Below are positions 1,424-18,631 of a DNA stretch of 20,558 nucleotides, in pieces; the first letter of the stretch is position 1, and the number at the start of each line of letters is the position of its first letter. Source of the stretch: Candidatus Desantisbacteria bacterium CG1_02_49_89 (lineage in GTDB: Bacteria > Desantisbacteria > UBA1551); NCBI GenBank assembly GCA_001871075.1, contig MNUP01000049.1, positions 1-20,558 on the forward strand, written 5' to 3'. The notes beneath the pieces were generated by a model. That model had not been told where the DNA came from. It saw only the letters and a program-made list of their open reading frames with translations, and searched no databases. Both the position numbers and the translations under genes were made by a program.

Positions 1424-1458
1424 ACGATGAACGATGCACGACGAACGATGAACGAGAA
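1424..1458 (+). repeat. 7-nt degenerate tandem array (ACGATGA x5) before the UroD-family gene
   Basis: Five consecutive 7-mers, ACGATGA, ACGATGC, ACGACGA, ACGATGA and ACGAGAA. The last one runs into the AGAAGGAG ribosome binding site (1455-1462) of the gene starting at 1468. Confidence 0.85.
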
Positions 1459-1467
1459 GGAGTTGCT

Positions 1468-2421
1468 ATGACGCCCAAAGAGCGTTTCAAGATCGCGCTG
1501 GAATGCAAGCCGCCGCCAAAAGGCCGCGTGCCCCATTTTGAGCTGGTGTTTTTCCTGACCATGGAGGCGTTTGGCAAGGTCCACCCTTCCCACCGCAGCT
1601 TTCACCAGTGGGACCAGATGAGCGAGACAGAAAGGCAGGTCCAGAGGGAGGATATGGCTGACATCTACGTGAAGACAGCTGAACGTTACGAGCACTCCGC
1701 CATATTCCTGCACCCCAATCCCGGAAGCTTTGAAGAGGTCTGCCGGCTCATTGACATCGTGAAGGAAAAAACCAACGATAAATACATGATCATGATCCAC
1801 GGCGGAGCCACCTACGGGATCCCAAACGGAACCGAAATGGCGAATTTTTCATACTGGCTTGCCGATAAGCCTGACGAAGCGAAAAAGAACGCGGATACCA
1901 TGGTCAACAACGCACTTGACACGGCCGCGAAATATAAAAAGCACGGCGGGCTGGACTGTTTCGCTATGTGCACGGACTACTGCCTTAACACAGGCCCGTT
2001 CCTCAGCCCAGGCCAGTTCTCGGAATTCGTGACCCCATACCTTATCAAGCTTGTAAAAGGATATAGGGATATGGGTTTTTACACCATAATGCACACGGAC
2101 GGCAATATTATGCCTATACTTGACCAGCTTGCGCAATCAAAACCTCACGCTTTGCAGTCGCTTGACCCGCAGGCAAAGGTTGATATAAAGGAAGTAAAAA
2201 AGCTCGTGGGTGACAGGATATGCCTTATAGGGAACGTGAATTGCGGCCTGCTTCAGACAGGCACGGATGAACAGGTCATCGAGTCAGCAAGATACTGCCT
2301 GAAACACGGGATGCCGGGCGGCGGGTACGTATTCTCCACAAGCAACTGCGTTTACACCGGAATGGCGCTGAAGCGGTACGAGCTTATTTTGGATGTCTGG
2401 CGCAAAAAAGGCAACTACTAA
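1468..2421 (+). CDS. Uroporphyrinogen decarboxylase-family protein (MtaA/CmuA-like)
   Basis: A 317-residue protein of the UroD superfamily, TIM-barrel proteins that include haem-pathway UroD and corrinoid-dependent methyltransferases such as MtaA and CmuA. Supporting motifs are the C-terminal half pattern PGQFSEFVTPYLIKLV, HTDGN at 209-213, LIGNVNCG and the C-terminal SNCVYTGM with Cys294. Corrinoid methyltransferases of this type bind zinc with His-x-Cys and a distant Cys; here the middle ligand position is Asp211, with His209 and Cys294 kept, so zinc binding may be altered or the chemistry different. Start ATG 1468 has AGAAGGAG five bases upstream. The protein is shorter than the other UroD-like gene (5860-7028), which does keep His-x-Cys. 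No corrinoid-binding partner is encoded nearby. Haem biosynthesis is unlikely given the carbohydrate context. The true substrate cannot be read from the sequence. Confidence 0.85.
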   Translation: MTPKERFKIALECKPPPKGRVPHFELVFFLTMEAFGKVHPSHRSFHQWDQMSETERQVQREDMADIYVKTAERYEHSAIFLHPNPGSFEEVCRLIDIVKEKTNDKYMIMIHGGATYGIPNGTEMANFSYWLADKPDEAKKNADTMVNNALDTAAKYKKHGGLDCFAMCTDYCLNTGPFLSPGQFSEFVTPYLIKLVKGYRDMGFYTIMHTDGNIMPILDQLAQSKPHALQSLDPQAKVDIKEVKKLVGDRICLIGNVNCGLLQTGTDEQVIESARYCLKHGMPGGGYVFSTSNCVYTGMALKRYELILDVWRKKGNY

Positions 2422-2428
2422 AGGATTA

Positions 2429-2493
2429 ACCACGGAGGCACGGAGGCACAGAGAATTCTTCGGCTTTTACAAATGACAAATGACTAATGACTG
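2429..2493 (+). repeat. Tandem arrays: 8-nt GGCACGGA x3, then 7-nt AAATGAC x3
   Basis: Positions 2429-2452 hold ACCACGGA, GGCACGGA and GGCACAGA. Positions 2471-2491 hold AAATGAC, AAATGAC and TAATGAC. The linker CTTCGGCTTTTAC between them recurs at 8343-8355 before an array with one unit fewer. Confidence 0.85.
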
Positions 2494-2499
2494 CCCTTT

Positions 2500-2519
2500 A
2501 ACCACGAATTAACTCGAAT
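2500..2519 (+). repeat. 10-nt repeat pair (ACNCGAATTA type)
   Basis: Two diverged 10-mers of the form AACCACGAATT / AACTCGAATT. A related pair (GACGAATT, GCACGAATT) follows at about 2561-2577. The rest of this gap carries no gene that I can support. Confidence 0.5.
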
Positions 2520-2614
2520 TGTTTGCTTCGCAACATTCTTTGTGGGTTACGTCGATAAACGACGAATTGCACGAATTTTGAATTCCAGTTTTAAAATAAA
2601 TTCCTTGCTGTTGC

Positions 2615-2646
2615 GTTGACACGTTGATACGCTGACACGTTGACAC
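2615..2646 (+). repeat. 8-nt tandem array (GTTGACAC x4) before the isomerase gene
   Basis: GTTGACAC, GTTGATAC, GCTGACAC and GTTGACAC in perfect register, ending nine bases before the AAGGAGG ribosome binding site of the gene starting at 2668. Confidence 0.9.
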
Positions 2647-2667
2647 GTTTTGAAAAAGGAGGCAGCA

Positions 2668-3522
2668 ATGAAAGTCGGATTAAGCAGCTACAGCTTGATA
2701 CAGGCGATAAACGCGAAGGAGATGGACCTGCCGGGCGCGGTGGCGTGGATAAAGGAGAACGGCGGCGAGCACGTGGAGATAGCGTATGACATCTTTGACC
2801 AGCCGCAGATGGCGGAAACGCTGAAGAAGAAGGCGAAGGACGTGGGGATAGATATTTCAAGTTACACGATAGGCGCCGGGTTCCTGCAGGCGAATAAGGA
2901 AGATTTTGAAAAGGAAGTAGCAAGGGTGAAAAAGCAGGTGGACATAGCCGCGGCGATGGGGGTTAAGCTTATGCGCCACGACGCGGCGTCCAGGCCGCCC
3001 AACGAGTGCGTGATCGAGCAGTTTGACAAAGACCTGCCCCAGATAGTTGACGGTTGCGGCAAGGTCGCGGACTACGCGAAACAGTTCGGCATCACGACAA
3101 GCGTTGAGAACCACGGGTATTTCATGCAGGCAAGCGATAGAATAAGGCTGCTTGTCAAAAAAGTCAACAGGGAAAATTTCAGGACAACCCTGGACGCGGG
3201 GAATTTCATGTGCGTTGACGAGGACCCGATAGCCGCGACAAAGAACAACATATCCATCGCTTCCCACGTTCACTTCAAGGATTTCTATTTCAGGCCCGCT
3301 CACGCGAATCCCGGAGAGGGCTGGTTCCCCACCCTGCACGGCAATTTCCTGAGAGGCTCGATCGTGGGCCAGGGAGACATCGACATAAGGACGGTTCTTA
3401 AGATCATAAAGGATTCCGGGTACAACGGATGCCTGTCAATCGAGTTCGAGGGCTTAGAAGAATGCAAGATGGGCTCAAGGGCGGGAATGGCGTTCGTTAA
3501 GAAGGCTCTGGCTGAGATATAA
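2668..3522 (+). CDS. Sugar phosphate isomerase/epimerase (xylose isomerase-like TIM barrel)
   Basis: A 284-residue protein of the AP endonuclease 2 / xylose isomerase-like TIM-barrel family, which includes tagatose/psicose 3-epimerases, inosose dehydratases and hydroxypyruvate isomerases. The four metal ligands expected in this fold are visible in order: Glu147 (SVENHG), Asp176 (LDAGNF), His202 (HVHFKDF) and Glu259 (LSIEFEG). GQGDIDIRTVLKIIKDSGY before the last ligand is typical. I chose ATG 2668 because AAGGAGG lies six bases upstream; an in-frame TTG at 2650 would put the ribosome binding site inside the coding region. No signal peptide, so cytoplasmic. It sits between a UroD-like gene and a Gfo/Idh/MocA gene. 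Isomerase/epimerase plus Gfo/Idh pairs commonly act on the same sugar or inositol derivative, but the substrate cannot be told from sequence alone. Confidence 0.88.
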   Translation: MKVGLSSYSLIQAINAKEMDLPGAVAWIKENGGEHVEIAYDIFDQPQMAETLKKKAKDVGIDISSYTIGAGFLQANKEDFEKEVARVKKQVDIAAAMGVKLMRHDAASRPPNECVIEQFDKDLPQIVDGCGKVADYAKQFGITTSVENHGYFMQASDRIRLLVKKVNRENFRTTLDAGNFMCVDEDPIAATKNNISIASHVHFKDFYFRPAHANPGEGWFPTLHGNFLRGSIVGQGDIDIRTVLKIIKDSGYNGCLSIEFEGLEECKMGSRAGMAFVKKALAEI

Positions 3523-3525
3523 ATA

Positions 3526-3546
3526 AGTCCACAGTCCACGGTCCAC
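3526..3546 (+). repeat. 7-nt tandem array (AGTCCAC x3)
   Basis: AGTCCAC, AGTCCAC and GGTCCAC directly after the isomerase stop codon. Confidence 0.85.
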
Positions 3547-3555
3547 CGTTTAAAG

Positions 3556-3587
3556 CGTGTCAACGTATCAACGTATCAACGTGTCAG
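3556..3587 (+). repeat. 8-nt tandem array (CGTATCAA x4)
   Basis: CGTGTCAA, CGTATCAA, CGTATCAA and CGTGTCAG, with no spacer between units. Confidence 0.88.
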
Positions 3588-3645
3588 AGCAAAAACAAGG
3601 AATTTATTTAAAACCTCAGTGAATTCAGCGGTAAAATCGGTATTT

Positions 3646-3689
3646 ATCCGTATGCATCCGTATTTTCTAATCCGTATGCATCCGCGAAC
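3646..3689 (+). repeat. 10-nt array (ATCCGTATGC type) before the 3707 gene
   Basis: Units ATCCGTATGC at 3646 and 3670, a longer ATCCGTATTTTCTA at 3656 and ATCCGCGAAC at 3680. The array stops just before AAAAGGAG of the gene starting at 3707. Confidence 0.8.
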
Positions 3690-3706
3690 ACAAAAGGAGA
3701 AGAACA

Positions 3707-4807
3707 ATGGAGAAGATCAAGATTGGGGTGATAGGGTGCGGGAACATAAGCCCTATTTATTTCACGAACCTGAAAAAGTTTGATTTTCTGCAGGTCGCGG
3801 CGTGTTCGGACCTGCTGATCGAAAGGGCGAAGGCAAGGGCGAATGAGTATAAGATACCGAAGGCTTGCAGCGTGAAAGAACTGCTGGCTGACCCGGAGAT
3901 CAAGGTAGTGCTGAACCTTACAATACCCATTGTCCACGCTGAAGTTGACCTCCAGATACTGACAGCGGGTAAGCACTCATACGCGGAAAAACCGCTTGCC
4001 GCGAACCGTAATGACGGCAAAAAGGTAATGAGCGAGGCAAAAAAGAGGAGCCTGCGCGTAGGCTCTGCGCCTGACACGTTTCTTGGCGGGGGCATCCAGA
4101 CCTGCAGGAAGCTCATCGATGACGGTTTTATAGGGAAACCTGTTGCCGGAACATCTTTTATGCTCTGCCACGGCCACGAGACCTGGCACCCTGACCCGGA
4201 CTTCTACTACCAGAAAGGCGGAGGCCCGATGTTCGATATGGGCCCCTATTACCTGACAGCGCTTATCAACCTGCTGGGACCGGTAAAGCGGGTCGCGGCG
4301 TCAACAAAAATGACTTTTCCTGAGCGGCTTATCACCAGCCAGCCGAAAAATGGGACCATTATAAAGGTAAACACTACAACCCATCTTGCGGGAGTTATGG
4401 ATTTCGCGAACGGAGCCATTGTTTCAATGATAACCAGCTTCGACGTCTGGTCAGCAGGCCTTCCGTGCATAGAAATATACGGGACAGAAGGTTGTATCAG
4501 GGTGCCTGACCCCAACGGTTTCGGCGGGCCGGTGGTCGTTTTCAAGAAGGGCTCAAAAGCGTGGGCTGAAACTCCCCTTTCCCATGGCTACTCTGAGAAC
4601 AGCCGGGGTCTGGGTGTCGCGGATATGGCAAAAGCGATTATCTCCGAAAGGAAGCACAGGGCGAGCGGTGACATGGCATTCCACGTGCTTGACATAATGC
4701 AGTCTTATGACGAATCCTCGGATGCAGGCAGGCATATTGAGATCAAGAGCACGTGCGAGCGCCCCCAGGCATTGCCAGCGGGATTGGGGTTCGGCCAAGT
4801 CGATTAA
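3707..4807 (+). CDS. Gfo/Idh/MocA family NAD(P)-dependent oxidoreductase
   Basis: A 366-residue sugar or polyol dehydrogenase-type protein. The N-terminal Rossmann fold is marked by IGVIGCGNI (residues 6-14). The EKP motif at 94-96 carries the usual catalytic lysine, Lys95. The C-terminal alpha/beta domain contains GGGPMFDMGPYY, where Asp177 fits the conserved acid and Tyr181 stands at the place often taken by His. The end, CERPQALPAGL, is a common C-terminal signature of the subfamily. Start ATG 3707 is preceded by AAAAGGAGAAG. This is the first of three members of the family in the window (others at 8794 and 14542). They differ in length and motif, so they probably act on different substrates or steps. 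Cytoplasmic; exact substrate unknown. Confidence 0.9.
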   Translation: MEKIKIGVIGCGNISPIYFTNLKKFDFLQVAACSDLLIERAKARANEYKIPKACSVKELLADPEIKVVLNLTIPIVHAEVDLQILTAGKHSYAEKPLAANRNDGKKVMSEAKKRSLRVGSAPDTFLGGGIQTCRKLIDDGFIGKPVAGTSFMLCHGHETWHPDPDFYYQKGGGPMFDMGPYYLTALINLLGPVKRVAASTKMTFPERLITSQPKNGTIIKVNTTTHLAGVMDFANGAIVSMITSFDVWSAGLPCIEIYGTEGCIRVPDPNGFGGPVVVFKKGSKAWAETPLSHGYSENSRGLGVADMAKAIISERKHRASGDMAFHVLDIMQSYDESSDAGRHIEIKSTCERPQALPAGLGFGQVD

Positions 4808-4815
4808 AAACATTT

Positions 4816-4850
4816 CAAATTTCAAATTGCAAATTTCAAATTGCAAATTT
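4816..4850 (+). repeat. 7-nt tandem array (CAAATTK x5)
   Basis: Alternating CAAATTT and CAAATTG units, five in a row. Related arrays lie at 14414-14441 and, inverted, 14467-14494. Confidence 0.92.
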
Positions 4851-4878
4851 AATCCCTTGAACTTCGGAACCTTTTTAA

Positions 4879-4906
4879 CATCCAGCATTTAGCATCCAGC
4901 ATCCAG
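4879..4906 (+). repeat. 7-nt tandem array (CATCCAG x4) before the esterase gene
   Basis: CATCCAG, CATTTAG, CATCCAG and CATCCAG, ending fifteen bases before ATG 4922. Confidence 0.92.
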
Positions 4907-4921
4907 CAAATAAAGGGAAAC

Positions 4922-5719
4922 ATGGAACGCATACCTGTGTTATTATGGGAAAAAGACGCGCCCGGAGCAACGGGCACAGGGCCTGAAGACTGCCCGCGGC
5001 TTACTTCCTATCTCTTGAAAACCGGCAAGCCGGACAGCGTGGTAATAGTCTGCCCGGGCGGAGGGTATGCTGCAAGGGCTGACCACGAAAAAGAACCGAT
5101 CTCTTTATGGCTGAACTCAATAGGCGTTTCAAGTTTTGTGCTGGACTACAGGGTCGCGCCTTATAAGTATCCTGTGCAGCTGTGGGACGCGCAAAGGGCC
5201 GTAAGGCTGGTCCGCCACAAAGCTAAGGAGTTCAATATTGACCCGAACCGCGTTGGAATGCTGGGTTTTTCAGCCGCAGGCCATCTTACGTCAATGCTTG
5301 GCACTCATTTTGACAGCGGAAAAAAGGATGACCCTGACCCGGTTGAAAGGCAGAGCTGCAGGCCTGACCTGATGATCCTGTGCTACCCGGTCATTTCAGC
5401 CGGGCAATTCATTGAGCCGGGTTCTTTTTCAAACCTTCTCGGCGAGAAAGCCACAAAGGATTTGCTGGATTCCATTTCAAGCGAGAAACAGGTGACTGCA
5501 GACACCCCTCCCGCGTTTATATGGCATACCCGGGACGACCAGGCTGTGTCGGTCGAGAACTCCATTCTTTTTGCGGAAGCTCTTAAAAAATTCAATGTCG
5601 CTTATGAATTGCATATTTTTGAGAGCGGTCCGCACGGCCTTGGACTTGCAAGCGATAACCCAAGTGTAAGCGCCTGGACAAAGTTATGTGAAAAATGGCT
5701 CAAAAAGCAAAATTTCTAG
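4922..5719 (+). CDS. Alpha/beta hydrolase, carbohydrate esterase-like
   Basis: A 265-residue alpha/beta-hydrolase of the acetyl-xylan esterase / BD-FAE-like group of the esterase-lipase superfamily. The oxyanion-hole region is CPGGGY near residue 45. The nucleophile elbow GFSAAGH gives Ser117. The likely acid is Asp205 or Asp206 in TRDDQAV and the base is His238 in GPHGLG. The stretch FVLDYRVAPYKYP before the elbow is typical of these esterases. There is no signal peptide, so it is predicted cytoplasmic and would act on imported, acylated oligosaccharides. Start ATG 4922 has only a weak AAGGGA-type ribosome binding site. Deacylation would fit the sugar-degradation genes around it, but a different ester substrate cannot be excluded. 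Confidence 0.85.
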   Translation: MERIPVLLWEKDAPGATGTGPEDCPRLTSYLLKTGKPDSVVIVCPGGGYAARADHEKEPISLWLNSIGVSSFVLDYRVAPYKYPVQLWDAQRAVRLVRHKAKEFNIDPNRVGMLGFSAAGHLTSMLGTHFDSGKKDDPDPVERQSCRPDLMILCYPVISAGQFIEPGSFSNLLGEKATKDLLDSISSEKQVTADTPPAFIWHTRDDQAVSVENSILFAEALKKFNVAYELHIFESGPHGLGLASDNPSVSAWTKLCEKWLKKQNF

Positions 5720-5735
5720 CAGTCTGCATCTGTAA

Positions 5736-5783
5736 CTCAGGACTTTTCGAAGACCCGCCAATTCTTAAGGTGGGAGTCCTGAG
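5736..5783 (+). repeat. Hairpin CTCAGGACT with a 30-nt insert in its apex
   Basis: The stem 5736-5744 pairs with 5775-5783. The loop is replaced by a 30-nt unit (5745-5774) containing TCGAAGACCCGCCAAT and TTAAGG. Close relatives of the unit sit in the apex of two other hairpins, at 18517-18546 and, on the minus strand, 8489-8518. Confidence 0.85.
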
Positions 5784-5787
5784 AATC

Positions 5788-5843
5788 TCAAACCTAAAGG
5801 TTTGAGTTACTCAAAACAGTGTTTACCTGTGTTAACCTGTGGT
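5788..5843. repeat. AAACCT hairpin and 46-nt repeat inverted at 18471-18516
   Basis: An empty hairpin CTCAAACCTAAAGGTTTGAG is followed by a block. Positions 5798-5843 match the reverse complement of 18471-18516 with 2 differences in 46. The block ends in a 10-nt pair, GTTTACCTGT / GTTAACCTGT (5821-5840), before the next gene's ribosome binding site. Confidence 0.9.
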
Positions 5844-5859
5844 AGAAAAGGAGGTTTTA

Positions 5860-6312: not shown

Positions 6313-7028
6313 GAAAATCGATCGAGGACCACGAGTACCTGGAAGAAAAGCGTAAAAAGACGGAATTTGAAGGAAAGCCGGTTGGCAGGGGAAGCATATT
6401 CGGGGGCGGGACAGACGGCCCCCTTACGATCGCCTGCAATCTTCGAGGAGCAAGCGAAGTCGCGATGGATTTTTATGAGGACCCCAAATACACGCACAAC
6501 CTACTGTCTTTTATAACAGATTCGGTGATAGCAAGGATAAAAAAGGTATATGAATATATGAAGATAGAATATCCCGGGCAGGGCTGGGGATTCGCGGACG
6601 ACAGCGTAGAGCTTATCTCTACCGAAATGTATAAGGAGTTCATCCTTCCCTACCATAAAAAATTACTGGCCGAATTCTCAAAAGGCGGGCCGAACGGCAT
6701 TCACCTGTGCGGCAAAGTGCAGAGGCATATGAAGTTCCTGAGAGATGAAATAAACATAAAGACCTTTGACCTGGGTTTTCCCACGGATATGGGAAAAGCC
6801 AGGGCTGAACTGGGGGAAGACGTGCTTTTGATCGGCAACATCGCGCCGCACCTGCTGAAACTTGGGCCTGAGCAGGCGATTATAGACGCTGTAAAGGACC
6901 TGTGCGGGTCAGGAGTGATGAAGGGCGGGAAGTTCATCCTGCACGACGGCAACAACTGCGCCCCGCTTACGCCGGTAAGCCACTTCCGGGCGATGTATGA
7001 GGCGGGGAAGCAGTATGGGATATACTGA
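6309..7028 (+). CDS. UroD-family protein, C-terminal part of a frameshifted gene
   Basis: The C-terminal 239 codons of the gene that starts at 5860; its ATG overlaps the TGA of the upstream part (ATGA). It contains the zinc motif expected of MtaA/CmuA-like methyltransferases: His132-Leu-Cys134 in GIHLCGKVQ and Cys217 in DGNNCAPLTP. These would be about His282, Cys284 and Cys367 of the repaired protein. Other family features are DDSVELISTEMYKEFILPYHKKLL and LLIGNIAPHLL. There is no separate ribosome binding site before ATG 6309, so independent initiation would need translational coupling; slippage at 6261-6267 or an indel is the simpler view. Unlike the 1468 paralogue, all three predicted zinc ligands are present, so this copy is the better candidate for a true methyl transfer role. 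Confidence 0.8.
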   Translation: MRKSIEDHEYLEEKRKKTEFEGKPVGRGSIFGGGTDGPLTIACNLRGASEVAMDFYEDPKYTHNLLSFITDSVIARIKKVYEYMKIEYPGQGWGFADDSVELISTEMYKEFILPYHKKLLAEFSKGGPNGIHLCGKVQRHMKFLRDEINIKTFDLGFPTDMGKARAELGEDVLLIGNIAPHLLKLGPEQAIIDAVKDLCGSGVMKGGKFILHDGNNCAPLTPVSHFRAMYEAGKQYGIY

Positions 7029-7029
7029 A

Positions 7030-7064
7030 GTTAAAGGTGAAAAGTTGAAGGTTAAAGGTTGAAA
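7030..7064 (+). repeat. 7-nt tandem array (GTTAAAG x5) that contains the start codon of the next gene
   Basis: GTTAAAG, GTGAAAA, GTTGAAG, GTTAAAG and GTTGAAA. The TTG start at 7059-7061 lies in the last unit and GAAGG at 7047-7051 can act as ribosome binding site, so the array itself carries the initiation signals. Confidence 0.85.
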
Positions 7065-8255
7065 ACTATACTGCTTACTATATTTTTAATTGGGGTGGGT
7101 TTAAATACCGGAGTTACAGCGGAAGGAGCAAAATTGGAGCAAAAGACAGAGGAGTTTTTTCCTATAGGGGTGTGGTTTGAGGGAGCTCCGGGACCGGCTG
7201 AATATCCTGCTGACAAGGCAGGCGCGAAGAAATATTATGACCGCTGTTTCGCAGACCTTGCCGCTCACGGGTTTAACTGCGTTGCTGTGCCGAACTGCCC
7301 TGAATCTTTGTGGCAGACGCTCCTGGAGTCAGCGCAGGAGAACAAAATAAAAGTCATTCTCGAGGTCAGACCGCTTGTGGAACTTATCTGCCGGGACAAA
7401 CCCTTGAAAGAAACGGAAGTTTACAAGACCGTGAAAAGAGTTGTTGATAAGATAGGCAATTACTCTTCCCTTCTGCGGTACCAGGTCAGGGATGAACCCC
7501 CTCCTGAGCAGGTCCAAAACTGGCTTGTGGTCAGGAACGCGCTCGAAGAGATCGACCCGTCCCGCCCCGCGTTCTCCTGTTTCTGCAACCCGGATTCTCT
7601 GAAGGCCGCGACTGACGCCGCTAAATTCTCCGAAACATGTTTTGATATCTACCCGCATTACGCGAAAGTGCCTGCGCAGACCCTGGGTAATTTCATAGAA
7701 TTGCTTTATAAATTCAAAAGGGCGTCCAGGGATAATGCGATGTGGGCGGTGCTGCAGTCCTTTGCCAAGCCTGAAGCGTGGCGGTATCCTTCGCCTGAGG
7801 AACTGCGAGCAGTGACATATTTGTCTATTGCGGCAGGAGCAAAAGGTATTTTCTATTTCCTTTACCAGACAATGCCGAAGCATTCAGAAGTGCTTGACGG
7901 GCTTATTAACGTTGACGGCAGCCCAAGGCCATTATATTCCACGGCTGAAACGCTCGCGCGCGAGCTCGGAAAGCTTGCCCCGCTCTTGATGTCTCTGAAG
8001 CCTGCGGAACAGACGGCTGAAATTTCCGGGCCTGCCCGCGCAGGCAGTTTTAAGGACCCGAATGGCAATCCTGTTTTGATAGTGGCAAGCGCGCGGCCCG
8101 GTGAGGGTGTGACCGTGACCGTGAGCGTGACGACGCTTGAAACAGGAAGCTGGAAGGACGCGCTGACCGGCGAGGTATTTTCCGCCAAGAACGGAGAACT
8201 CGCGATCCCGCTCGCTCCCGGCGCCGGCCGAGTCCTCAAAAGCACAAAAGATTAA
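7059..8255 (+). CDS. Secreted TIM-barrel glycoside hydrolase-like protein
   Basis: A 398-residue protein with a clear signal peptide (Met-Lys then a hydrophobic core to about residue 19, ending GVTA before EGAK). The start is TTG 7059; a later start would remove the signal peptide. The mature part reads as a GH-A-like TIM barrel: PIGVWFEG on strand 1, YQVRDEPPP with Asp145-Glu146 at the strand-4 end where the acid/base of such hydrolases sits, and AAGAKGIFYFLYQ near the last strand. A small beta domain follows (about 320-398, ending in APGAGRVLKSTKD). I cannot assign a GH family or substrate. It is one of only two proteins here with a secretion or membrane signal in the metabolic block, so it may act on extracytoplasmic glycans. 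The TAA stop overlaps the first base of the following tandem array. Confidence 0.7.
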   Translation: MKTILLTIFLIGVGLNTGVTAEGAKLEQKTEEFFPIGVWFEGAPGPAEYPADKAGAKKYYDRCFADLAAHGFNCVAVPNCPESLWQTLLESAQENKIKVILEVRPLVELICRDKPLKETEVYKTVKRVVDKIGNYSSLLRYQVRDEPPPEQVQNWLVVRNALEEIDPSRPAFSCFCNPDSLKAATDAAKFSETCFDIYPHYAKVPAQTLGNFIELLYKFKRASRDNAMWAVLQSFAKPEAWRYPSPEELRAVTYLSIAAGAKGIFYFLYQTMPKHSEVLDGLINVDGSPRPLYSTAETLARELGKLAPLLMSLKPAEQTAEISGPARAGSFKDPNGNPVLIVASARPGEGVTVTVSVTTLETGSWKDALTGEVFSAKNGELAIPLAPGAGRVLKSTKD

Positions 8256-8410
8256 CCACGGAGGCACGGAGACACAGAGGAATATTTGGCTCATATTAAA
8301 AACTTACCACGGAAGCGCGGAAAGACGGAAACACGGAGAATTCTTCGGCTTTTACAAATGACTAATGACTGTTTTTTTAACCACGGATTAGCACGGATTT
8401 CCACGGATAA
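8255..8410 (+). repeat. Four successive tandem arrays (8-, 8-, 7- and 10-nt periods)
   Basis: 8255-8278: ACCACGGA, GGCACGGA, GACACAGA. 8306-8337: ACCACGGA, AGCGCGGA, AAGACGGA, AACACGGA. 8356-8369: AAATGAC, TAATGAC. 8381-8410: CCACGGATTA, GCACGGATTT, CCACGGATAA. These fill the first part of the 538-bp gap 8256-8793. Confidence 0.9.
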
Positions 8411-8414
8411 GAAC

Positions 8415-8590
8415 CTTTTGGGAACTGTAATAGAGCCCTAGGAGTAGAGCACTGGGAGTAAACCCTTTAGGGTCGTTTAAACGGGGCTCCCTCCTTAAGG
8501 ACTGGCGGGTCTTCGAAAAGCCCTCCGAAGAGTCCGTATACTCCGTCCTTTCGGAGTCATCGGACCTACTCCTAAATAATTTCCACGAAA
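8415..8590. repeat. Hairpin cluster with a nested 30-nt insert
   Basis: Contains ACCCTTTAGGGT, the stem CTCCG..CGGAG near 8540, and the stem GGGCT (8484-8488) / AGCCC (8519-8523) whose apex holds the 30-nt CCCGCC insert on the minus strand (8489-8518). A minus-strand open frame through here is repeat-derived and I do not support it as a gene. Confidence 0.65.
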
Positions 8591-8665: not shown

Positions 8666-8710
8666 CACTGAAGGCACAGAGACACAGGGAAATCTTTTCT
8701 GGTTTCAAAC

Positions 8711-8739
8711 TTGACACTTGATACTTGGCTCTTGATACT
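8711..8739 (+). promoter_or_regulatory. 7-nt array TTGACAC/TTGATAC with promoter-like spacing
   Basis: Units TTGACAC, TTGATAC, TTGGCTC and TTGATAC at 8711-8738. TTGACA (8711-8716) followed after 17 bases by GATACT (8734-8739) resembles a sigma-70 promoter for the gene at 8794; GATAAT at 8743 is another possible -10. As a repeat the call is firm; as a promoter it is speculative. Confidence 0.4.
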
Positions 8740-8745
8740 TAAGAT

Positions 8746-8780
8746 AATCACCGTAATCGCAGTTGAAAATCACCGTAATC
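8746..8780 (+). promoter_or_regulatory. Paired AATCACYGTAATC boxes before the 8794 gene
   Basis: Two 13-bp copies at 8746-8758 and 8768-8780, starts 22 bp apart. Each contains the imperfect palindrome ATCAC-N-GTAAT. The second copy abuts the AAAAGGAG ribosome binding site. The same pairing occurs before 11006 and 13215. Confidence 0.55.
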
Positions 8781-8793
8781 AAAAGGAGTCAAA

Positions 8794-9792
8794 GTGATAA
8801 GATTTGGCCAGATCGGGGTCGGAGGGGAAGGCACTATATACACGCCGATAATAGCGGAAAATCCCGCGTGCAGGCTTGCAGCGGTGTGCGACATCAACAA
8901 GGAAGTCCTTGACAGGGTTGCCGGGGAACGGAAGGCGAATGCTTACACGGATTTCAGGGAAATGATAGAGAAGGAAGACCTGGATGCGGTTGCCATAATC
9001 CTCCCCCACTATCTTTATCCTGAGGCAGTGGGGCTTGCCGCGAAAAAGAACCTTCACATCCTGCAGGAAAAGCCGTTCGCGAGGAACCTGCCAGACGCGA
9101 AAAAGATAGTCAAAGCGCTGAAAGGCTACAAAGGAATATACATGCTGAGCGCGCAGAGGAAATACAGCCCTGCTTTCCAGAAGGCGAAAGAGATAATAAA
9201 GAGCGGCAGCATCGGGAAAGTCCAGCTTATCGAGGCGTACGCGCAATACAGGTTTACCAGGACTTCTGAGTCTTTCGGGTGGAGGACGAAAAAGAAGCTT
9301 TCCGGAGGGCTTGCTATAATTGATTTCGGGTGGCATATGCTTGACACGATATACTGGATAAAGGGCATGCCTTCAAGGGTTTACGCGAATACCTGCGGCA
9401 TAAAAGCGCTTGAGGGAAAGAACGACATAGACGAAACCGCGAACATAATACTTGAATACGCGGACGGTTCATCAGCGGTGGTGCTGACCTCTATTACCTC
9501 CATCGGCAGGTGCTGGGAGTTCACATTTCAGTGCACCAAGGGTACAATAAAATTCTCGCCCTGCTTAGTTGAAACCTATGACAAGGAAAAACTGATTGAA
9601 AAGCTGGATATCACGAAAACAGAGCCTGAAATGTTCGCGGCGCAGTTCAACGTATTCCTGAACGCGGTGCAGACAGGGAAAAAACCGCTGACAGGCCCAG
9701 CGTACGGCCTGAACCTTTCCCGCATCGCCGAGGCCGCGTACCGGTCAGCTTCGTCCGGCAAGCCAGTGCTCCTTAAAAACTTAACTGGTTAA
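8794..9792 (+). CDS. Gfo/Idh/MocA family oxidoreductase
   Basis: A 332-residue member of the family. The Rossmann start is FGQIGVGGEGT, the EKP motif is Glu92-Lys93-Pro94 with Lys93 as likely catalytic lysine, and IDFGWHMLDTIYWI (His181, Asp184) is the conserved G-x-H-x-x-D block. Start GTG 8794 is supported by AAAAGGAG five bases upstream. The TAA stop (9790-9792) lies inside the first unit of the following 9-nt array (ggTTAAaag), so the last residues NLTG may have been set by the array. It shares paired upstream boxes with the glycoside hydrolase gene at 11006 and galE at 13215, suggesting common control. Cytoplasmic; substrate unknown. Confidence 0.9.
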   Translation: MIRFGQIGVGGEGTIYTPIIAENPACRLAAVCDINKEVLDRVAGERKANAYTDFREMIEKEDLDAVAIILPHYLYPEAVGLAAKKNLHILQEKPFARNLPDAKKIVKALKGYKGIYMLSAQRKYSPAFQKAKEIIKSGSIGKVQLIEAYAQYRFTRTSESFGWRTKKKLSGGLAIIDFGWHMLDTIYWIKGMPSRVYANTCGIKALEGKNDIDETANIILEYADGSSAVVLTSITSIGRCWEFTFQCTKGTIKFSPCLVETYDKEKLIEKLDITKTEPEMFAAQFNVFLNAVQTGKKPLTGPAYGLNLSRIAEAAYRSASSGKPVLLKNLTG

Positions 9793-9822
9793 AAGGGTTA
9801 AAGGGGTTAAAAAGGTTAAAAG
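9787..9822 (+). repeat. 9-nt tandem array (GGTTAAAAG x4)
   Basis: GGTTAAAAG, GGTTAAAGG, GGTTAAAAA and GGTTAAAAG in register; the first unit holds the TAA stop of the preceding gene. A related 9-nt array is at 15626-15661. Confidence 0.9.
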
Positions 9823-9841
9823 TTGAAAGCTTATGCCCGAG

Positions 9842-9873
9842 CTTACAAGCTAACAAGCTTATAAGTTTACAAG
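9842..9873 (+). repeat. 8-nt tandem array (CTTACAAG x4)
   Basis: CTTACAAG, CTAACAAG, CTTATAAG and TTTACAAG directly upstream of the membrane protein gene. Confidence 0.9.
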
Positions 9874-9903
9874 CAAGTTTGATTTAAAAAGAGTACTTTG
9901 ATT

Positions 9904-10995: not shown

Positions 10996-11005
10996 AGGGG
11001 GCTCA

Positions 11006-12955: not shown

Positions 12956-13032
12956 GAATTTCCACGAAAGAAGCTTTTTACAGGGATCTTCGAAAGAGAT
13001 TTAAAAAACCAAGCTATAGATTCACAAGATTT

Positions 13033-13088
13033 CCACGAAATCACGAAAGTGTCACGAAATCACGAAAGAATAACCACGGAGGCACGGA
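13033..13088 (+). repeat. 8-nt array changing from TCACGAAA to CCACGGA units
   Basis: CCACGAAA, TCACGAAA, (GTG), TCACGAAA and TCACGAAA at 13033-13067, then ACCACGGA and GGCACGGA at 13073-13088. Confidence 0.85.
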
Positions 13089-13103
13089 GATTACAGTTTT
13101 AAC

Positions 13104-13158
13104 TTGACACTTGATACTTAGCTTGCCCGCCAATCTTGCTGGGCGGGACTCTTGACAC
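13104..13158 (+). repeat. TTGACAC/TTGATAC array interrupted by a CCCGCC hairpin (filled site)
   Basis: TTGACAC (13104) and TTGATAC (13111), then TTAGCT, then an insert (13124-13148, stem CCCGCC 13126-13131 / GGCGGG 13142-13147), then CTCTTGACAC. The uninterrupted equivalent is 8711-8738, where the third unit is TTGGCTC. The flanks continue to match beyond the insert. Confidence 0.88.
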
Positions 13159-13165
13159 TTAAAAT

Positions 13166-13202
13166 AATCACTGTAATCGTCAGTTCGAAAATCACCGTAA
13201 TC
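13166..13202 (+). promoter_or_regulatory. Paired AATCACYGTAATC boxes before galE
   Basis: Copies at 13166-13178 and 13190-13202, starts 24 bp apart; the second touches the AAGGAG ribosome binding site of the gene at 13215. Confidence 0.55.
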
Positions 13203-13214
13203 AAGGAGTGAAGG

Positions 13215-14390: not shown

Positions 14391-14413
14391 TAGCCATAAG
14401 GACATTGCAAAAG

Positions 14414-14494
14414 TCAAATTGTAAATTGCAAATTTTAAATTTAAGTCACGGGATCCCATAATTTTACAATTTACATTTTGCAATTTGAAATTTG
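14414..14494. repeat. Inverted pair of 7-nt arrays (CAAATT type)
   Basis: 14414-14441: TCAAATT, GTAAATT, GCAAATT, TTAAATT. 14467-14494: CAATTTA, CATTTTG, CAATTTG, AAATTTG, the opposite orientation. They flank GTCACGGGATCCCATAA and could fold on each other. Related to 4816-4850. Confidence 0.85.
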
Positions 14495-14541
14495 AAATGA
14501 ATTCTGCCGACGTATCTCTCAAATATTATTTAGGAGGCTGA

Positions 14542-15621
14542 ATGAGCAAGTACAGGGTGGCATTCATCGGGACGGGCAAACCGGGCAATCCGGGATTAAA
14601 AGGTTACGCTATGGCGTACCAGCACGCGCTTGGGTACAAGGCGCTTGCTGACTGCGAGATGGCCGCGTGCGCTGACATAGTCAGGGAGAACGCTGACGCG
14701 TTCGCGAAGCAATTCGGGATAAAAGGCGTGTATACCGATTACAACGAGATGCTTAAAAAGGAAAAACCGGACGTTGTCAGCATCGCGGTCTGGCCGCACC
14801 TTCACGCGGAAATGATAATTGCCTGCTGCAACGCGGGGGTAAAGGCGATCCACAGCGAAAAGCCGGTTGCGACTACCTGGGGGGACGCGAAGAGATGCGC
14901 GGCTGCGGCTGAAAAGGCCAGGGTCCAGCTCACGTTCAACCACCAGAGAAGGTTCGGCAGGCCGTTCAGGCTTGCCAAAGAGAAACTGCGCGAGGGCGCG
15001 ATAGGGAAACTCCAGAGGATGGAGTTCGGGCTTGGCGACATCTACGACGGCGGCACCCACTGGGTGGATATGATGAACATGTTCAATGACGAGACGCCCG
15101 CGGAATGGGTCATAGGCCAGATCGACACTCGCCAGATAAGGCTGGCGTTCGGCGCCCCTATCGAATGGCAGGGGATCTTCCACGTGATGTATAAGAACGG
15201 GGTGCAGGGGGTTTATTTTACAGGGGTGGAGACCGGGCGCAAGCTTGGTTTTAATACGCGGCTTTACGGCACAGAAGGGATAATAGAGCTGGGCTGGGAC
15301 GCGCTGCCGGGATGGATAGTAAGGTGGCTGAAGTATGACAAAGGCACCTGGACAGGAGACATGGCTAACGGGGAATCTTTGCACGACCCTAATTTCGTGG
15401 AAAGGGCGATAGCGGACACCATAGAATCTCTCAGGACAGGAAGGGAGCCGGAGCTCAGCGCGCGCAGGGCGATGAACGCGACAGAGATCATATTCGCGTG
15501 TTACGAGTCAAGCCGCAGAAGGGCGCGCATAGACCTTCCGCTTACCATAGAAGACTCCCCTATCCAGTCCATGATGGACAAGAATGAAGTGAAGTGGGAA
15601 TACGCCCCCAACGCTAAATAA
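14542..15621 (+). CDS. Gfo/Idh/MocA family oxidoreductase
   Basis: A 359-residue family member, third in the window. It begins YRVAFIGTGKPGNPG, a Rossmann start with an extended glycine loop. The EKP motif is Glu106-Lys107-Pro108, with Lys107 as likely catalytic lysine. The GGTHWVDMM block gives His173 and Asp176, as expected for the D/H pair of the substrate site; this is the most canonical of the three copies. GTEGIIELGWD is the usual strand at the domain end. Start ATG 14542 follows AGGAGG. No signal peptide, so cytoplasmic. Lies between galE and the rhamnosidase, so rhamnose- or galactose-derived substrates are attractive, but that is inference from position only. Confidence 0.9.
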   Translation: MSKYRVAFIGTGKPGNPGLKGYAMAYQHALGYKALADCEMAACADIVRENADAFAKQFGIKGVYTDYNEMLKKEKPDVVSIAVWPHLHAEMIIACCNAGVKAIHSEKPVATTWGDAKRCAAAAEKARVQLTFNHQRRFGRPFRLAKEKLREGAIGKLQRMEFGLGDIYDGGTHWVDMMNMFNDETPAEWVIGQIDTRQIRLAFGAPIEWQGIFHVMYKNGVQGVYFTGVETGRKLGFNTRLYGTEGIIELGWDALPGWIVRWLKYDKGTWTGDMANGESLHDPNFVERAIADTIESLRTGREPELSARRAMNATEIIFACYESSRRRARIDLPLTIEDSPIQSMMDKNEVKWEYAPNAK

Positions 15622-15625
15622 TAAA

Positions 15626-15693
15626 GTTAAAGGGGTTAAAAAGGTTAAAAGGGTTAAAAGTTAAATCCGTGCGAATCCGTGGAAATCCGTGGT
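15626..15693 (+). repeat. 9-nt array (GTTAAAAGG x4) and 10-nt array (AATCCGTGGA x3)
   Basis: 15626-15661: GTTAAAGGG, GTTAAAAAG, GTTAAAAGG, GTTAAAAGT. 15664-15693: AATCCGTGCG, AATCCGTGGA, AATCCGTGGT. First part of the 389-bp gap 15622-16010. Confidence 0.9.
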
Positions 15694-15740
15694 TGCAGAA
15701 GCAGCCATTTTTAAAAAGCTAAAAACTTATAAGGTAGTCT

Positions 15741-15799
15741 CCCGCCACTTCGGCGGGTCGCCGTAGGGGCGACAGTGAATTCAGTGAACTCAGTGGCAA
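15741..15799 (+). repeat. Two hairpins and a 9-nt array (CAGTGAATT x3)
   Basis: Hairpin CCCGCC/GGCGGG (15741-15757), hairpin GTCGCC/GGCGAC (15757-15773), then CAGTGAATT, CAGTGAACT and CAGTGGCAA at 15773-15799. A diverged AGTTTACA array follows near 15811-15838. Confidence 0.85.
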
Positions 15800-15858
15800 A
15801 TTTTTAAAGCAGTTTATAGAGTTTACAAGTTTACAAGTAAAATTCGTGCAAATTAGTG

Positions 15859-15927
15859 CCGTAGGGTCATCGATTCGGTTCTGACCCGAAGGCCCCAGCG
15901 TTACGGTTTCGTAGAAACCTGCAGGGG
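15859..15927 (+). repeat. Two-hairpin element, copy 3 (69 bp)
   Basis: CCGTAG left end. Hairpin 1 is GGGTCA/TGACCC. Hairpin 2 has CCCC/GGGG outer pairs and GGTTTC-GTA-GAAACC inside. Same length as copy 2. Confidence 0.85.
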
Positions 15928-15951
15928 TTAATTCGTGGTTAAAGTGAATTT

Positions 15952-15986
15952 TTTCGTGCTTTCGTGGTACTTTCGTGCTTTCGTGG
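15952..15986 (+). repeat. 8-nt tandem array (TTTCGTGC/TTTCGTGG x4) before the rhamnosidase
   Basis: TTTCGTGC, TTTCGTGG, TAC, TTTCGTGC, TTTCGTGG. A GTG in this array is in frame with the rhamnosidase but is unlikely to be its start. Confidence 0.9.
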
Positions 15987-16010
15987 AAATCTTTAGTTGT
16001 GGGGGTTGAT

Positions 16011-18455
16011 TTGAAAGAGCCGTTTGACGGCAGCGCTTTCTGGGTATGGTCTTCCGAAGGCCACTGGGCGACCCAGGCAAGGCAGGACCCTTACCGCGTA
16101 AGGTATTTCCGAAGGGCCTTTGAGGTGAACGACCTGCCGGCAAAGCTCCTGATCCATGTTTCAGCCGATTCCAAATACATCCTTTACGTAAATTCGCAAT
16201 TCGTGTGCAGAGGGCCGGCAAAAGGCGATATCGCCCACCAGTTTTACGAGACCGCGGACGCAAGCAGGTTCCTTAAAAAAGGCAGGAACGTTATCGCGGC
16301 TCTGGTAAAGTATTACGGCGACTCTTTCCCGAATTACGGAATGGGCGGAGCTCCTGACTCTGTGATGTCAGAAGCCCCGGGCTTCATTGCCGACGCGGTT
16401 TTGAAATACGGCGGCAAAGAGATAAAGCTGCACACGGACTCAACCTGGAAAGTACTTGTTGATGAGGCGTACAACCACAAGGCCTGCGCAGGCAACTGCG
16501 TATATACCGGATACCGCGAAATATTCGATTCCCGCAAATATCTGCGAGGCTGGGAAAGCCCGGATTTTGACGATAGTTCCTGGGAGAACGCTGTCCAGAT
16601 ATGGAAAGGCGAAACTATTTCCCGCAGGAATGACAGCGCTGTGCCGCATATCCTTTATCCCAGGATCATACCTGCGCTTGAAGAGGATCCCCGCAATTTT
16701 AAAACGGTTTTCGGCTCTGACAACAGGACCTGCGCCGGATTTGAAAAGGTAATCGCGAATAACGGCGTTTTTGAAATACCCGCCGGATCGTCAGTTGACA
16801 TTTCCCTGGATGCCGGGGAGCTTGTTACCGGTTTTCCCCTGCTTGAGGTCTCGGGAGGCAGGGACTCGGAAATAAAACTTGTTTATTCAGAAGCCCTGTT
16901 TGGGAAAAAACCGGGCAAGATGCCTTTGCCATGGGAGGAAAAAGGCCCTAAGATAAACCGCAACGATACCGAAGGCGGCGCTGTCCAGGGTTTATGGGAC
17001 ACGTTCATCCCTGGCGGCGGCGAATCAACATACAAACCTTTCCAGTGGGCCGCGTTCAGGTTCATGCGCCTGATCGCGGACGTAAAAGACGAACCGCTTA
17101 TTATAAGGAAAATAGGGTATATATACCACGCGTTCCCTTTCAGGCAAACCGGTATATTTTCAAGCTCCGACCCCGGATTTTCCAGGATACTTGACGTAAG
17201 CACCCGCACCCAGCGGCTTTGCTCGCACGAAACATACGAGGACTGCCCTTATTACGAACAGCTCCAGTATGCGGGCGACACACAGGTGCAGGCTCTTGTT
17301 TCGTATTACCTTTTCAGCGACGCGCGGCTCGCAAGGCAGGCAATACGCCATTTTGACTGGTCGCGCAACAGCGAAGGCATAACTGCCAGCAGGTACCCGT
17401 CAAGGGTGGGGCAGATAATACCTTTCTGGAGCCTTCACTGGATAATGATGGCCTGCGAATACTGGAAATACACCGGCGATGCCGAAGAAGCGGAAAGAAT
17501 GGTTCCCGGTATTTTCGCGGTGCTGGGATGGTTTGAAAGGCATATAGGCAAAACCGGGCTTCTTGAAAAACTCCCCTACTGGTGCGTGGCTGACTGGTCT
17601 CCGGAATGGACAGACAAAAAGGATGGCGCGGGCGTTCCTCCCGGAACAAAAACAGGGGTCTCGGCCCTTATCAATTTCCAGTATATATACTGCCTTGAAA
17701 TATTCGCAGGGATGCTTGAAGCTCTGGGACAGCGGGACAAAGCCGTAAGCCTGAAAAAAACCGCATCCGCGCTGAAGAAAAAAAGCAAAGCTGTTTTCTG
17801 GGACAATAAAAAGGGATTGTTCAGGGATTCGCCGTCTTATCCCAGGGATTTCAGCCAGCTTGCCAATGCCTGGGCAGTGTTATGCGGAGCTGCCGATCCT
17901 GCCTGCTATAAAAAGATCGCTGCCGCGCTTGAAAACCCGGATGGCCTGTCAAGGGCTTCTTATTTCGGGCTTTTCTACTGTTTCAGGGCTCTTTCCAAGA
18001 TGAACGAATATGACAGGGTTTTCAATATGCTCGAACCCTGGAAGGAAATGCTTAAGCTGGGGCTTACGACCTGGAGCGAGGATATAGTCAGCCAGAGGAG
18101 CGACTGCCACGCCTGGTCAGGCGCGCCCGCATTTGAGTTTTTCAACGAGGTGCTGGGCATCAAGCCCTTACTGCCGGGTTTTAAAAAAGTGCTGATACAG
18201 CCCAGGCCAGGGCCGCTAGAGCACGCTGAAGGCAGGATCGTGATACCATCATTAAAAGATTACCACGGAGGCCACGCCTTAAAGATTGGCGGGCGCGGCA
18301 CGGAGGCACAGAGAAATACAATTGAGGTAAGCTGGTTTAAGAAAAACGGTTGTATGGTAATAAAAGGAAAGCTGCCTGCGGGAATTACAGGCTTGGTTTC
18401 TTTCAACGGCAAAAGCGTTAACGTTACCCAGTCTTTTAAAACCATATTTAAATGA
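16011..18455 (+). CDS. GH78 alpha-L-rhamnosidase-like protein
   Basis: About 814 residues. The order is an N-terminal beta-sandwich (FWVWSSEGHW, then FRRAFEV and LLIHVSADSKYILYVN), a linker beta region, an (alpha/alpha)6 barrel from about 370 to 720, and a C-terminal beta domain. The barrel carries the GH78 signature Asp411-Cys-Pro-Tyr-Tyr-Glu416 and Asp423 (E-x6-D), with the spacing +5 and +7 expected of the catalytic Asp/Glu/Asp set. Glu690 in TTWSEDI is a likely fourth acid. No signal peptide is seen, so it should cleave rhamnosides in the cytoplasm. The start is uncertain: I prefer TTG 16011 (GGGGG upstream, like the 11006 gene) over GTG 15999; GTG 15975 lies in a repeat. Odd: residues about 752-769 are encoded by an intergenic repeat inserted in frame. 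Confidence 0.87.
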   Translation: MKEPFDGSAFWVWSSEGHWATQARQDPYRVRYFRRAFEVNDLPAKLLIHVSADSKYILYVNSQFVCRGPAKGDIAHQFYETADASRFLKKGRNVIAALVKYYGDSFPNYGMGGAPDSVMSEAPGFIADAVLKYGGKEIKLHTDSTWKVLVDEAYNHKACAGNCVYTGYREIFDSRKYLRGWESPDFDDSSWENAVQIWKGETISRRNDSAVPHILYPRIIPALEEDPRNFKTVFGSDNRTCAGFEKVIANNGVFEIPAGSSVDISLDAGELVTGFPLLEVSGGRDSEIKLVYSEALFGKKPGKMPLPWEEKGPKINRNDTEGGAVQGLWDTFIPGGGESTYKPFQWAAFRFMRLIADVKDEPLIIRKIGYIYHAFPFRQTGIFSSSDPGFSRILDVSTRTQRLCSHETYEDCPYYEQLQYAGDTQVQALVSYYLFSDARLARQAIRHFDWSRNSEGITASRYPSRVGQIIPFWSLHWIMMACEYWKYTGDAEEAERMVPGIFAVLGWFERHIGKTGLLEKLPYWCVADWSPEWTDKKDGAGVPPGTKTGVSALINFQYIYCLEIFAGMLEALGQRDKAVSLKKTASALKKKSKAVFWDNKKGLFRDSPSYPRDFSQLANAWAVLCGAADPACYKKIAAALENPDGLSRASYFGLFYCFRALSKMNEYDRVFNMLEPWKEMLKLGLTTWSEDIVSQRSDCHAWSGAPAFEFFNEVLGIKPLLPGFKKVLIQPRPGPLEHAEGRIVIPSLKDYHGGHALKIGGRGTEAQRNTIEVSWFKKNGCMVIKGKLPAGITGLVSFNGKSVNVTQSFKTIFK
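18262..18313 (+). repeat. Intergenic composite repeat inserted in frame in the rhamnosidase gene
   Basis: Copy of the ACCACGGAGG...GGCACGGAGGCACAGAG family with the nested CCCGCC-type element (about 18270-18296, minus orientation). It encodes roughly residues 752-769 of the enzyme; family-like sequence continues on both sides (GRIVIPS before, TIEVSW after). Confidence 0.88.
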
Positions 18456-18470
18456 TCACCACAGAATTTA

Positions 18471-18516
18471 ACCACAGGTCAATACAGGTAAACACTGTTT
18501 TGAGTAACTCAAACCT
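18471..18516. repeat. 46-nt repeat, inverted copy of 5798-5843
   Basis: Its reverse complement differs from 5798-5843 at 2 of 46 positions. It leads into the AAACCT hairpin that holds a 30-nt insert. Confidence 0.92.
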
Positions 18517-18554
18517 TCTCGAAGACCCGCCAATCTTTAAGGAGGGAGGTTTGA
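18509..18554 (+). repeat. Hairpin TCAAACCT with a 30-nt insert in its apex
   Basis: Stem 18509-18516 / 18547-18554. The apex holds 18517-18546, which matches the insert at 5745-5774 at 26 of 30 positions. The same stem without insert is present at 5788-5807. Confidence 0.88.
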
Positions 18555-18556
18555 TA

Positions 18557-18631
18557 TCAGGGCTGAAGCCCTGAGTTACAATAAAATTCCATGCCGTTGA
18601 TTCATAACTCATAATTCATAACTCATAATTA
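18557..18631 (+). repeat. Left inverted repeat of the PfkB kinase gene
   Basis: 75 nt: the CAGGGCT hairpin, a spacer with CCGTTGATT, then 7-nt units CATAACT/CATAATT (four). Its reverse complement matches 19509-19593 apart from one 7-nt unit, a 17-nt insertion and four substitutions. Confidence 0.88.

Follow-up and report, generated by a model that had tools for sequence, protein, structure and literature searches.

What are the short, degenerate tandem arrays that occupy so many of the gaps between the genes of this locus, and how do they come to be there? Degenerate heptamer arrays have so far been known piecemeal, from cyanobacteria and giant sulfur bacteria, and without a mechanism. A preliminary description of the window (20,558 nt of one contig of a draft genome of 2.48 Mb that is 93.5% complete) had taken them for a system with a different unit in each gap, situated before almost every gene and tending to end at the ribosome binding site. 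The present analysis covers about 656 kb in stretches (the window, L016-L035 and L151-L170), or 26% of the 2.48 Mb. Genes were called with a simple dicodon model and TRF was run on intergenic, coding and shuffled sequence. Array density was compared in the first 350 kb (period 6-11, score >=40), using as controls five dinucleotide-preserving shuffles and 284 kb of coding sequence, while families, defined as three or more arrays, were grouped over the 656 kb at a TRF score >=36, and an intergenic base was counted as dispersed repeat if it matched another site in the sample at E<1e-4. An Rfam search of the window gave no match, and a literature search using the repeat sequences themselves as queries matched no paper.

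The arrays are real. TRF recovered 11 of the 12 that had been named, at or adjoining the positions given for them, the remaining one (ATCCGTATGCx4 at 3646) being seen by eye and absent from TRF output. The 350 kb contained 121 intergenic arrays of period 6-11, compared with 0-2 in each dinucleotide-preserving shuffle (n=5), and the 284 kb of coding sequence held 29, the intergenic density being 18 times higher. Arrays of period 2-5 were absent from the 350 kb at a score >=40. About 69% of the gaps of at least 60 nt (227/328) contain an array.

The idea of a different unit in each gap is contradicted by the larger sample, in which 21 recurring families hold 355 of the 514 arrays and many of those outside the families are weak matches in coding sequence. 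Within the window, the CACGGAGG family is found at 2431, 8257, 13068 and 18300, the GTTAAAG family at 7028, 9787 and 15626, the TTTGCAA family at 4812, 14415 and 14463, the TRTCARMG family at 2614 and 3556 (mutual reverse complements), and the AGTTTACA, CACGGATT and TTTCGTGC families at 9840 and 15811, 8380 and 15663, and 13034 and 15952, respectively. The arrays are parts of longer dispersed repeats, the middle 90% of matches being 32-110 nt, and such repeats make up 43% of intergenic bases. The median array length is 29-32 nt at periods 7, 8, 10, 11 and 14 and 39 nt at period 9, although the lower limit of this ~30-nt length is set partly by the detection threshold. Some arrays mix related units, and the core AATAAAATTCCTTGC and its variants precede arrays of the ATTCATA, CGTTGACA, CTCTGATA, ATTTTAAATTG and ATCTAGG types. 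Local slippage, meaning in-place tandem duplication of a few bases followed by mutational decay, would explain the tandem structure but is hardly credible when the same ~20 units occur at hundreds of sites and in genes, flanks and cores are shared, and periods 2-5 are missing. Among the few near-verbatim copies of long arrays is a 62-nt ACGACGT array found twice with one difference (L016:14202-14263 and L020:3808-3869).

The window illustrates how these modules are combined. A GTKCWTC-family heptamer array on the minus strand (1424..1455; ACGATGA on the plus strand; TRF and family assignment) lies upstream of the gene at 1468-2421. It is followed by a composite repeat (2420..2520, plus; self-BLAST) made up of a CACGGAGG array (2431-2453), an AATGACW array (2469-2491) and a CACGAATTA-type stretch, the module order of which recurs at 8246-8399 (self-BLAST) in a second composite (8246..8408, plus; TRF and self-BLAST) with CACGGAGG and CACGGAAA arrays, an AATGACT stretch and CACGGATT arrays; the order CACGGAG, AATGACW, CACGRATTA stretch is conserved at 2431-2520 and 8325-8399. 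The gene at 2650-3522 is flanked by 68-bp inverted copies that are 85% identical, one upstream (2587..2654, minus) consisting of the core AATAAATTCCTTGC and a CGTTGACA array (2614-2649) and one downstream (3549..3616, plus) with a CGTATCAA array (3556-3586). Similarly, the PfkB gene (18649-19524) has 75-85 bp inverted copies of a REP-like hairpin, core and array on its two sides, the upstream copy (18557..18631, minus) comprising the hairpin TCAGGGCTGAAGCCCTGAGTTAC, the core AATAAAATTCC and a ATTCATAACTCATA array, and the downstream copy (19509..19593, plus) being 79% identical over 85 positions. A REP-like hairpin flank with a CACAGGTDAA array (5797..5843, minus) has an inverted copy at 18471-18517 (96% identity), while an ACTTGAC array followed by a AATCACCGTAATC repeat (8709..8792, plus), which reaches the gene at 8794-9792, has a direct copy at 13101-13212. 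The CACGAAAT array, CACGGAG stretch and ACTTGAC array at 13026..13160 (plus; TRF and self-BLAST) include, in the ACTTGAC array, an interruption by a GC hairpin at ~13119-13150 that is seen against L164. A GTTAAAG-family array (7028..7063, plus; TRF) fills the 30-nt gap between the genes at 6309-7028 and 7059-8255, and two arrays, GTTAAAAG (9787-9822) and AGCTTACA (9840-9874), make up the feature at 9787..9874 (plus; TRF). Directly past stop codons lie a TTTGCAA-family array (4810..4852, minus; TRF and self-BLAST; gene 3707-4807) and a GTTAAAAGG array with a AAATCCGTGG array (15626..15692, plus; gene 14542-15621), and CAGTGAACT, AGTTTACA and TTTCGTGC arrays (15773..15985, plus) are upstream of or overlap the gene at 15975-18455.

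Members of a family that share a gap are usually inverted, with 35 inverted pairs versus nine direct ones, and same-family pairs account for 34% of the pairs within a gap versus 7.5% expected by chance. Each family uses one polarity for its inverted pairs (14/14 in ARTTATG, 4/4 and 3/3 in two others, and 2/2 in each of four more), a uniformity that would arise by chance with a probability of ~2e-7. Example doublets are predicted to fold as hairpins with z-scores of -3 to -7; in the window, the TTTGCAA-family doublet at 14415..14498, the arms of which (14415-14441 and 14463-14498) share one gap, gives a predicted hairpin with z = -2.98. About one quarter of the intergenic family arrays belong to inverted doublets. 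Cognate arms pair no better than arms swapped within the family and mismatch somewhat more, and it is therefore the fixed unit positions that hold the stem together, with mismatches spaced along it. Among the mismatches G-U and A-C are equally common, each being above all 200 arm swaps, and this equality rules out the idea that the variable positions reflect RNA wobble pairing.

The arrays occur on either side of genes and within them, contrary to the view that they precede almost every gene. Start codons have 20% of the family arrays within 20 nt, versus 16% with random placement, which does not confirm a tendency to end at the ribosome binding site; stop codons have 38% within the same distance versus 17%. 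Apart from GTTAAAG (18:3), the clear exception, almost every family has members in both orientations relative to the gene. Expression tuning, the first of the three roles initially suggested, is disfavoured because of this mixed orientation, the lack of enrichment at start codons and the presence of ~30-nt arrays in frame in essential genes, while the third, which makes the arrays a side effect of copying or repair, is nearest to the data. A regulatory or RNA-level function, in which the arrays would be binding sites or 3' hairpins for termination or mRNA stability with selection acting on fixed unit positions, is in keeping with the stop-codon enrichment, the strong predicted hairpins, the 97-100% conservation of fixed positions beside free ones in several families and the slight excess of convergent gaps in other phyla (15/58). 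We nevertheless consider it quite improbable, as the orientation is mixed, arrays show no enrichment at start codons, no clear depletion from divergent gaps is seen in other phyla (10/58), arrays lie within essential genes, and the arms show no covariation, A-C mismatches being as common as G-U ones and each exceeding the level in swapped arms.

Arrays of the same families are found in frame in the genes for IspG, Dxr, a radical SAM protein, TsaB, ThiL, TsaD, UvrA, LeuRS, LeuC, AspRS, NadC and PrmC, the identities of LeuRS, AspRS, IspG and UvrA being backed by PDB alignments and the other gene names coming from sequence alone. They occupy loops that are variable in other bacteria, and the unit identity of intragenic arrays is 92% versus 88% (p 0.007). 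The window has its own example in the rhamnosidase gene (15975-18455), where an in-frame element (18247..18313, plus), an inverted relative of 1362-1429, consists of a CACGGAGG array split by the hairpin CCACGCC..GGCGGGCGCGG; the Pfam Bac_rhamnosid_C match ends at residue 755, where the element begins, and the C-terminal domain is interrupted. The first array of LeuRS adds nine residues relative to the sister genus and about seven relative to most of 29 other genomes. Across the family arrays, the net length change against the sister genome ranges from +24 to -27 residues, which means that loops have often been replaced and not merely extended, and the changes at the second LeuRS site and in AspRS, IspG and NadC resemble replacement. 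The same loops hold different elements in the sister genome, namely REP-type hairpins such as GTAGTGGCAGAGTGAACTCTGC in IspG and UvrA and an array of another family, AGTGTCAAAATATCAA, in NadC. The NadC loop, with a AGTGTCAA-type array in the sister (L339) and an AAAATGC-type array here, is of equal net length in the two.

Comparison of copies within the genome showed GC-rich hairpins, 20-75 nt in length, as clean filled and empty pairs, with some of the hairpins inserted inside arrays (L019:19579 in a CGTTGACA array and L162:9539 in a CACGGAG array). Some of these clean insertions adjoin TTAC (L027:11645, L169:5087 and L163:16021 among others), and TTAC is a target in IS608-like single-stranded DNA transposition. 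The source genome has 10 Y1_Tnp matches and, as regards a reverse transcriptase as a possible mover, one RVT_1 match. Y1_Tnp is present in 45 of the 52 genomes that carry the unit CACRGAGR versus 174 of 324 others (p 3.5e-6), an association uncorrected for genome size and repeat content.

Taken together, the arrays look like small mobile hairpin elements and not like one private switch per gene, because ~20 families recur, sit in frame in essential genes and often form mirror-image pairs. With moderate confidence, we regard them as dispersed elements of a REPIN-like, non-autonomous kind that have degenerate tandem arrays for arms and are kept where they are harmless. The basic module is ~30 nt of degenerate tandem array. 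It stands alone or is paired with an inverted second array across a short spacer or core, every family keeping to a single polarity, and such a doublet gives a predicted hairpin of roughly 70-150 nt that has mismatches in its stem. Modules are dispersed genome-wide in either orientation, having spread presumably through transposition or single-strand-templated copying of the hairpin, and are joined into composites with REP-like hairpins that in turn insert into them; they persist at harmless sites between genes and in variable protein loops, probably with a near-neutral effect on the host. Several observations count against such mobile elements: no insertion or excision of an array module itself was seen in the within-genome copy comparison, array-sized filled/empty differences were few, some loop cases look like replacement, only about one quarter of the intergenic family arrays are in inverted doublets, the arrays do not carry the GTAG/CGTC tag of REPs, and the genome richest in CACRGAGR (G202, 248 matches) has no Y1_Tnp match.

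The known systems that come closest each share part of this anatomy. REPINs are inverted doublets of REPs (PMC3116915), and REPs carry a GTAG/CGTC tag and are also known to prefer the stop-codon side of genes and to have intragenic copies (PMC3733652). Like REPs and REPINs with their RAYTs, the present elements are short dispersed extragenic modules, single or in inverted hairpin doublets, mostly downstream of genes, with some in-frame copies at tolerated sites and with Y1 transposases in the genome, and hairpin-forming inverted doublets are over-represented as they are in REPINs. In their distribution, fixed-polarity inverted doublets, downstream preference and in-frame copies they agree with published accounts of REPs and REPINs, and in that sense they work like REPINs. 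They are not REPs themselves because the module is a degenerate 7-10 nt tandem array without a palindrome of its own or a GTAG or CGTC tag, whereas a REP is a 20-40 bp palindrome so tagged at one end, a form that the family consensus units do not take; REP-like hairpins proper are separate modules of the same composites. Also unlike REPs and REPINs, ~20 families coexist here, and the array-richest genome found, G202, lacks a Y1_Tnp match. REPs and REPINs are moved by a RAYT, a Y1 transposase, and lie beside its gene; for the present elements such an enzyme is a candidate mover, with the 10 Y1_Tnp matches of this genome and the positive association across genomes on one side and the lack of a match in G202 on the other. 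MITEs have terminal inverted repeats and a target-site duplication; the present elements have inverted arms, and no empty counterpart turned up for an array doublet. Rickettsia palindromic elements, which are palindromes with a CGTC end found in frame in protein genes at tolerated sites (PMC3733652), share the in-frame location, but the elements here are mostly single tandem arms of ~30 nt. TAACTGA direct repeats occur in marine Beggiatoaceae, cyanobacteria and Bacteroidetes as a single unit mostly directly upstream of start codons, related heptamers being rare (PMC4679880). Like the present arrays, they are short, made of heptamers, situated in gaps and in some ORFs, patchy across phyla and with no known mover, and they differ in that the units here are many and degenerate, near stop codons and not start codons, and often in inverted pairs; TAACTGA is absent from the 21 families of the 656 kb.

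The short tandemly repeated repetitive sequences (STRRs) of heterocystous cyanobacteria, to which the arrays had been compared at the outset, are alike in kind, being degenerate tandem heptamers that are intergenic and in many copies, and of the 16 records matched by an AATGACW array, 14 are plasmids of filamentous cyanobacteria, Nostoc, Tolypothrix and Scytonema among them. The accompanying notion that nearly all genes have a unit to themselves is unsupported because the units are a small shared set. The present arrays differ from STRRs in having many more families, periods of 8-11, fixed-polarity inverted doublets, shared cores and in-frame copies in essential genes, and this is anatomy not described in the STRR or TAACTGA reports. 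That anatomy is now largely resolved into ~30-nt modules, one-polarity doublets, shared cores, set variable positions and in-frame copies, and the origin and spread of these repeats becomes directly testable, cultured species included.

How the arrays vary bears on how they are made. Within families, nearly all differences are confined to one to four unit positions, as in ARTTATG (0,62,0,14,3,2,2 differences by position), TRTCARMG (1,47,1,2,3,40,19,3), RGTTRAA (36,0,0,1,29,0,0) and GTKCWTC (0,0,36,1,19,1,1), and fixed positions are 97-100% conserved in several families. The mismatch positions are non-uniform with p from 7e-6 to 4e-53, values that assume independence among units, an assumption that recent copies violate, and the direction of the bias therefore matters more than its size. 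Variable positions are nearly independent of one another and their combinations are mostly unique to an array (29/31, 29/29, 15/15 and 13/13 distinct), the exception being one combination present in 12 of 34 ARTTATG arrays. In seven larger families units are no more alike within than between arrays, and they are more alike within arrays in TRTCARMG, TTTGCAA, TTGACAC, ATCCAGT, CACAGAGG and the CGTGGAAATT type. This variation pattern is not predicted by slippage of a founder unit with random decay, which the higher within-array likeness of five families and the CCACGRATT-type family would suit, and which the concentration of mismatches at few positions and the seven families without extra likeness would not. 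The pattern would be expected if the arrays formed a recombining pool, if selection acted on the fixed positions, or if arrays were synthesised to a degenerate pattern. DGR-like adenine mutagenesis is ruled out, most units having fixed adenines.

The same pattern can be read in terms of repair or template switching, in which arrays would be filler at breaks or stalled forks, laid down by repeated short copying from existing arrays, and continual short-tract conversion within a family would keep fixed positions uniform and reassort variable ones. The replacement-like loop changes (second LeuRS site, AspRS, IspG and NadC), the arrays mixing related units, the individual variant combinations with near-independent variable positions and the absence of excess within-array likeness in seven families all speak for such a process. 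We think it unlikely as the main explanation, since alone it leaves unexplained both the single polarity of the doublets and the sharp-ended arrays of similar length in other phyla.

The exact 23-mer CACGGAGGCACGGAGACACAGAG was found outside this genome in at least 111 stretches, the hosts including Acidobacteria, Gemmatimonadetes, Planctomycetes, Nitrospirae, Nitrospinota, Bacteroidetes, Spirochaetes, Chloroflexi, Verrucomicrobia, Proteobacteria and a Calothrix chromosome. The periodic signal drops away directly outside it. An inverted partner lies within 120 nt at 50 of 115 sites, with none in control stretches, and CACRGAG comes first and CTCYGTG second in 49 of these pairs with the reverse order in none, one site having both. 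Across the domain, 52 of 386 genomes have the unit CACRGAGRCACRGAG (CACRGAGR) itself, with 141 matches here; a reversed-pattern control is not valid for it because the reversed pattern falls in phase with the same array. ARTTATG is found in 15 and AATGACW in five of 366 genomes, with three genomes for each reversed control. A bulk dictionary shared across phyla is ruled out by 14-mer and 13-mer counts: own 14-mers outside the CACAGAGG family occur at 18 places versus five for their mirror images (807 kb of other-phylum loci), and 13-mers are not in excess in the several other genomes sampled. As these tests show little excess, only a few units appear to be widely shared, CACRGAGR and, more weakly, ARTTATG and AATGACW.

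A further reading is a cross-phylum class of mobile hairpin distinct from REP/RAYT, in which some enzyme or copying process would write each array anew from a degenerate pattern. Drawing from a pattern with set fixed and variable positions could explain why most arrays differ yet obey the same rule, and we regard this variant as unlikely. Genomes of other phyla (L187 in G017, L231-L233 in G065 and L227-L230 in G354) carry their own units in degenerate arrays between genes, chiefly heptamers, at 11-17 arrays per 10 kb of intergenic DNA. In other phyla convergent gaps are in slight excess (26% vs 17%) and a terminator role finds no clear support from gap types.

Other repeats and features accompany the arrays in the window. 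REP-like hairpins gtagggcaaggctttagccttgc and gtaactcagggctttagccctga and GATTGCTTC...GCAATGAC elements lie at 19560-19760, 1-76 and 1249-1275 and are of a kind familiar from other bacteria. Short tandem palindromes (ttcgcacacagtgtgtgcgaaat twice and cccagacagtgtctggg) at 405-535 are in frame in the gene at 109-1248, a DUF1016_N / YhcG_C nuclease, and fall between its two Pfam domains. The region 1468-19524 is a co-directional run of sugar-related genes by Pfam, comprising a URO-D-like protein, a xylose-isomerase-like barrel, Gfo/Idh/MocA dehydrogenases, an esterase, glycosyl hydrolases, the rhamnosidase and the PfkB kinase. Neighbouring genes are co-directional in 429 of 444 cases here and in 337 of 357 in the sister genome sample (G001), which far exceeds the usual bacterial level.
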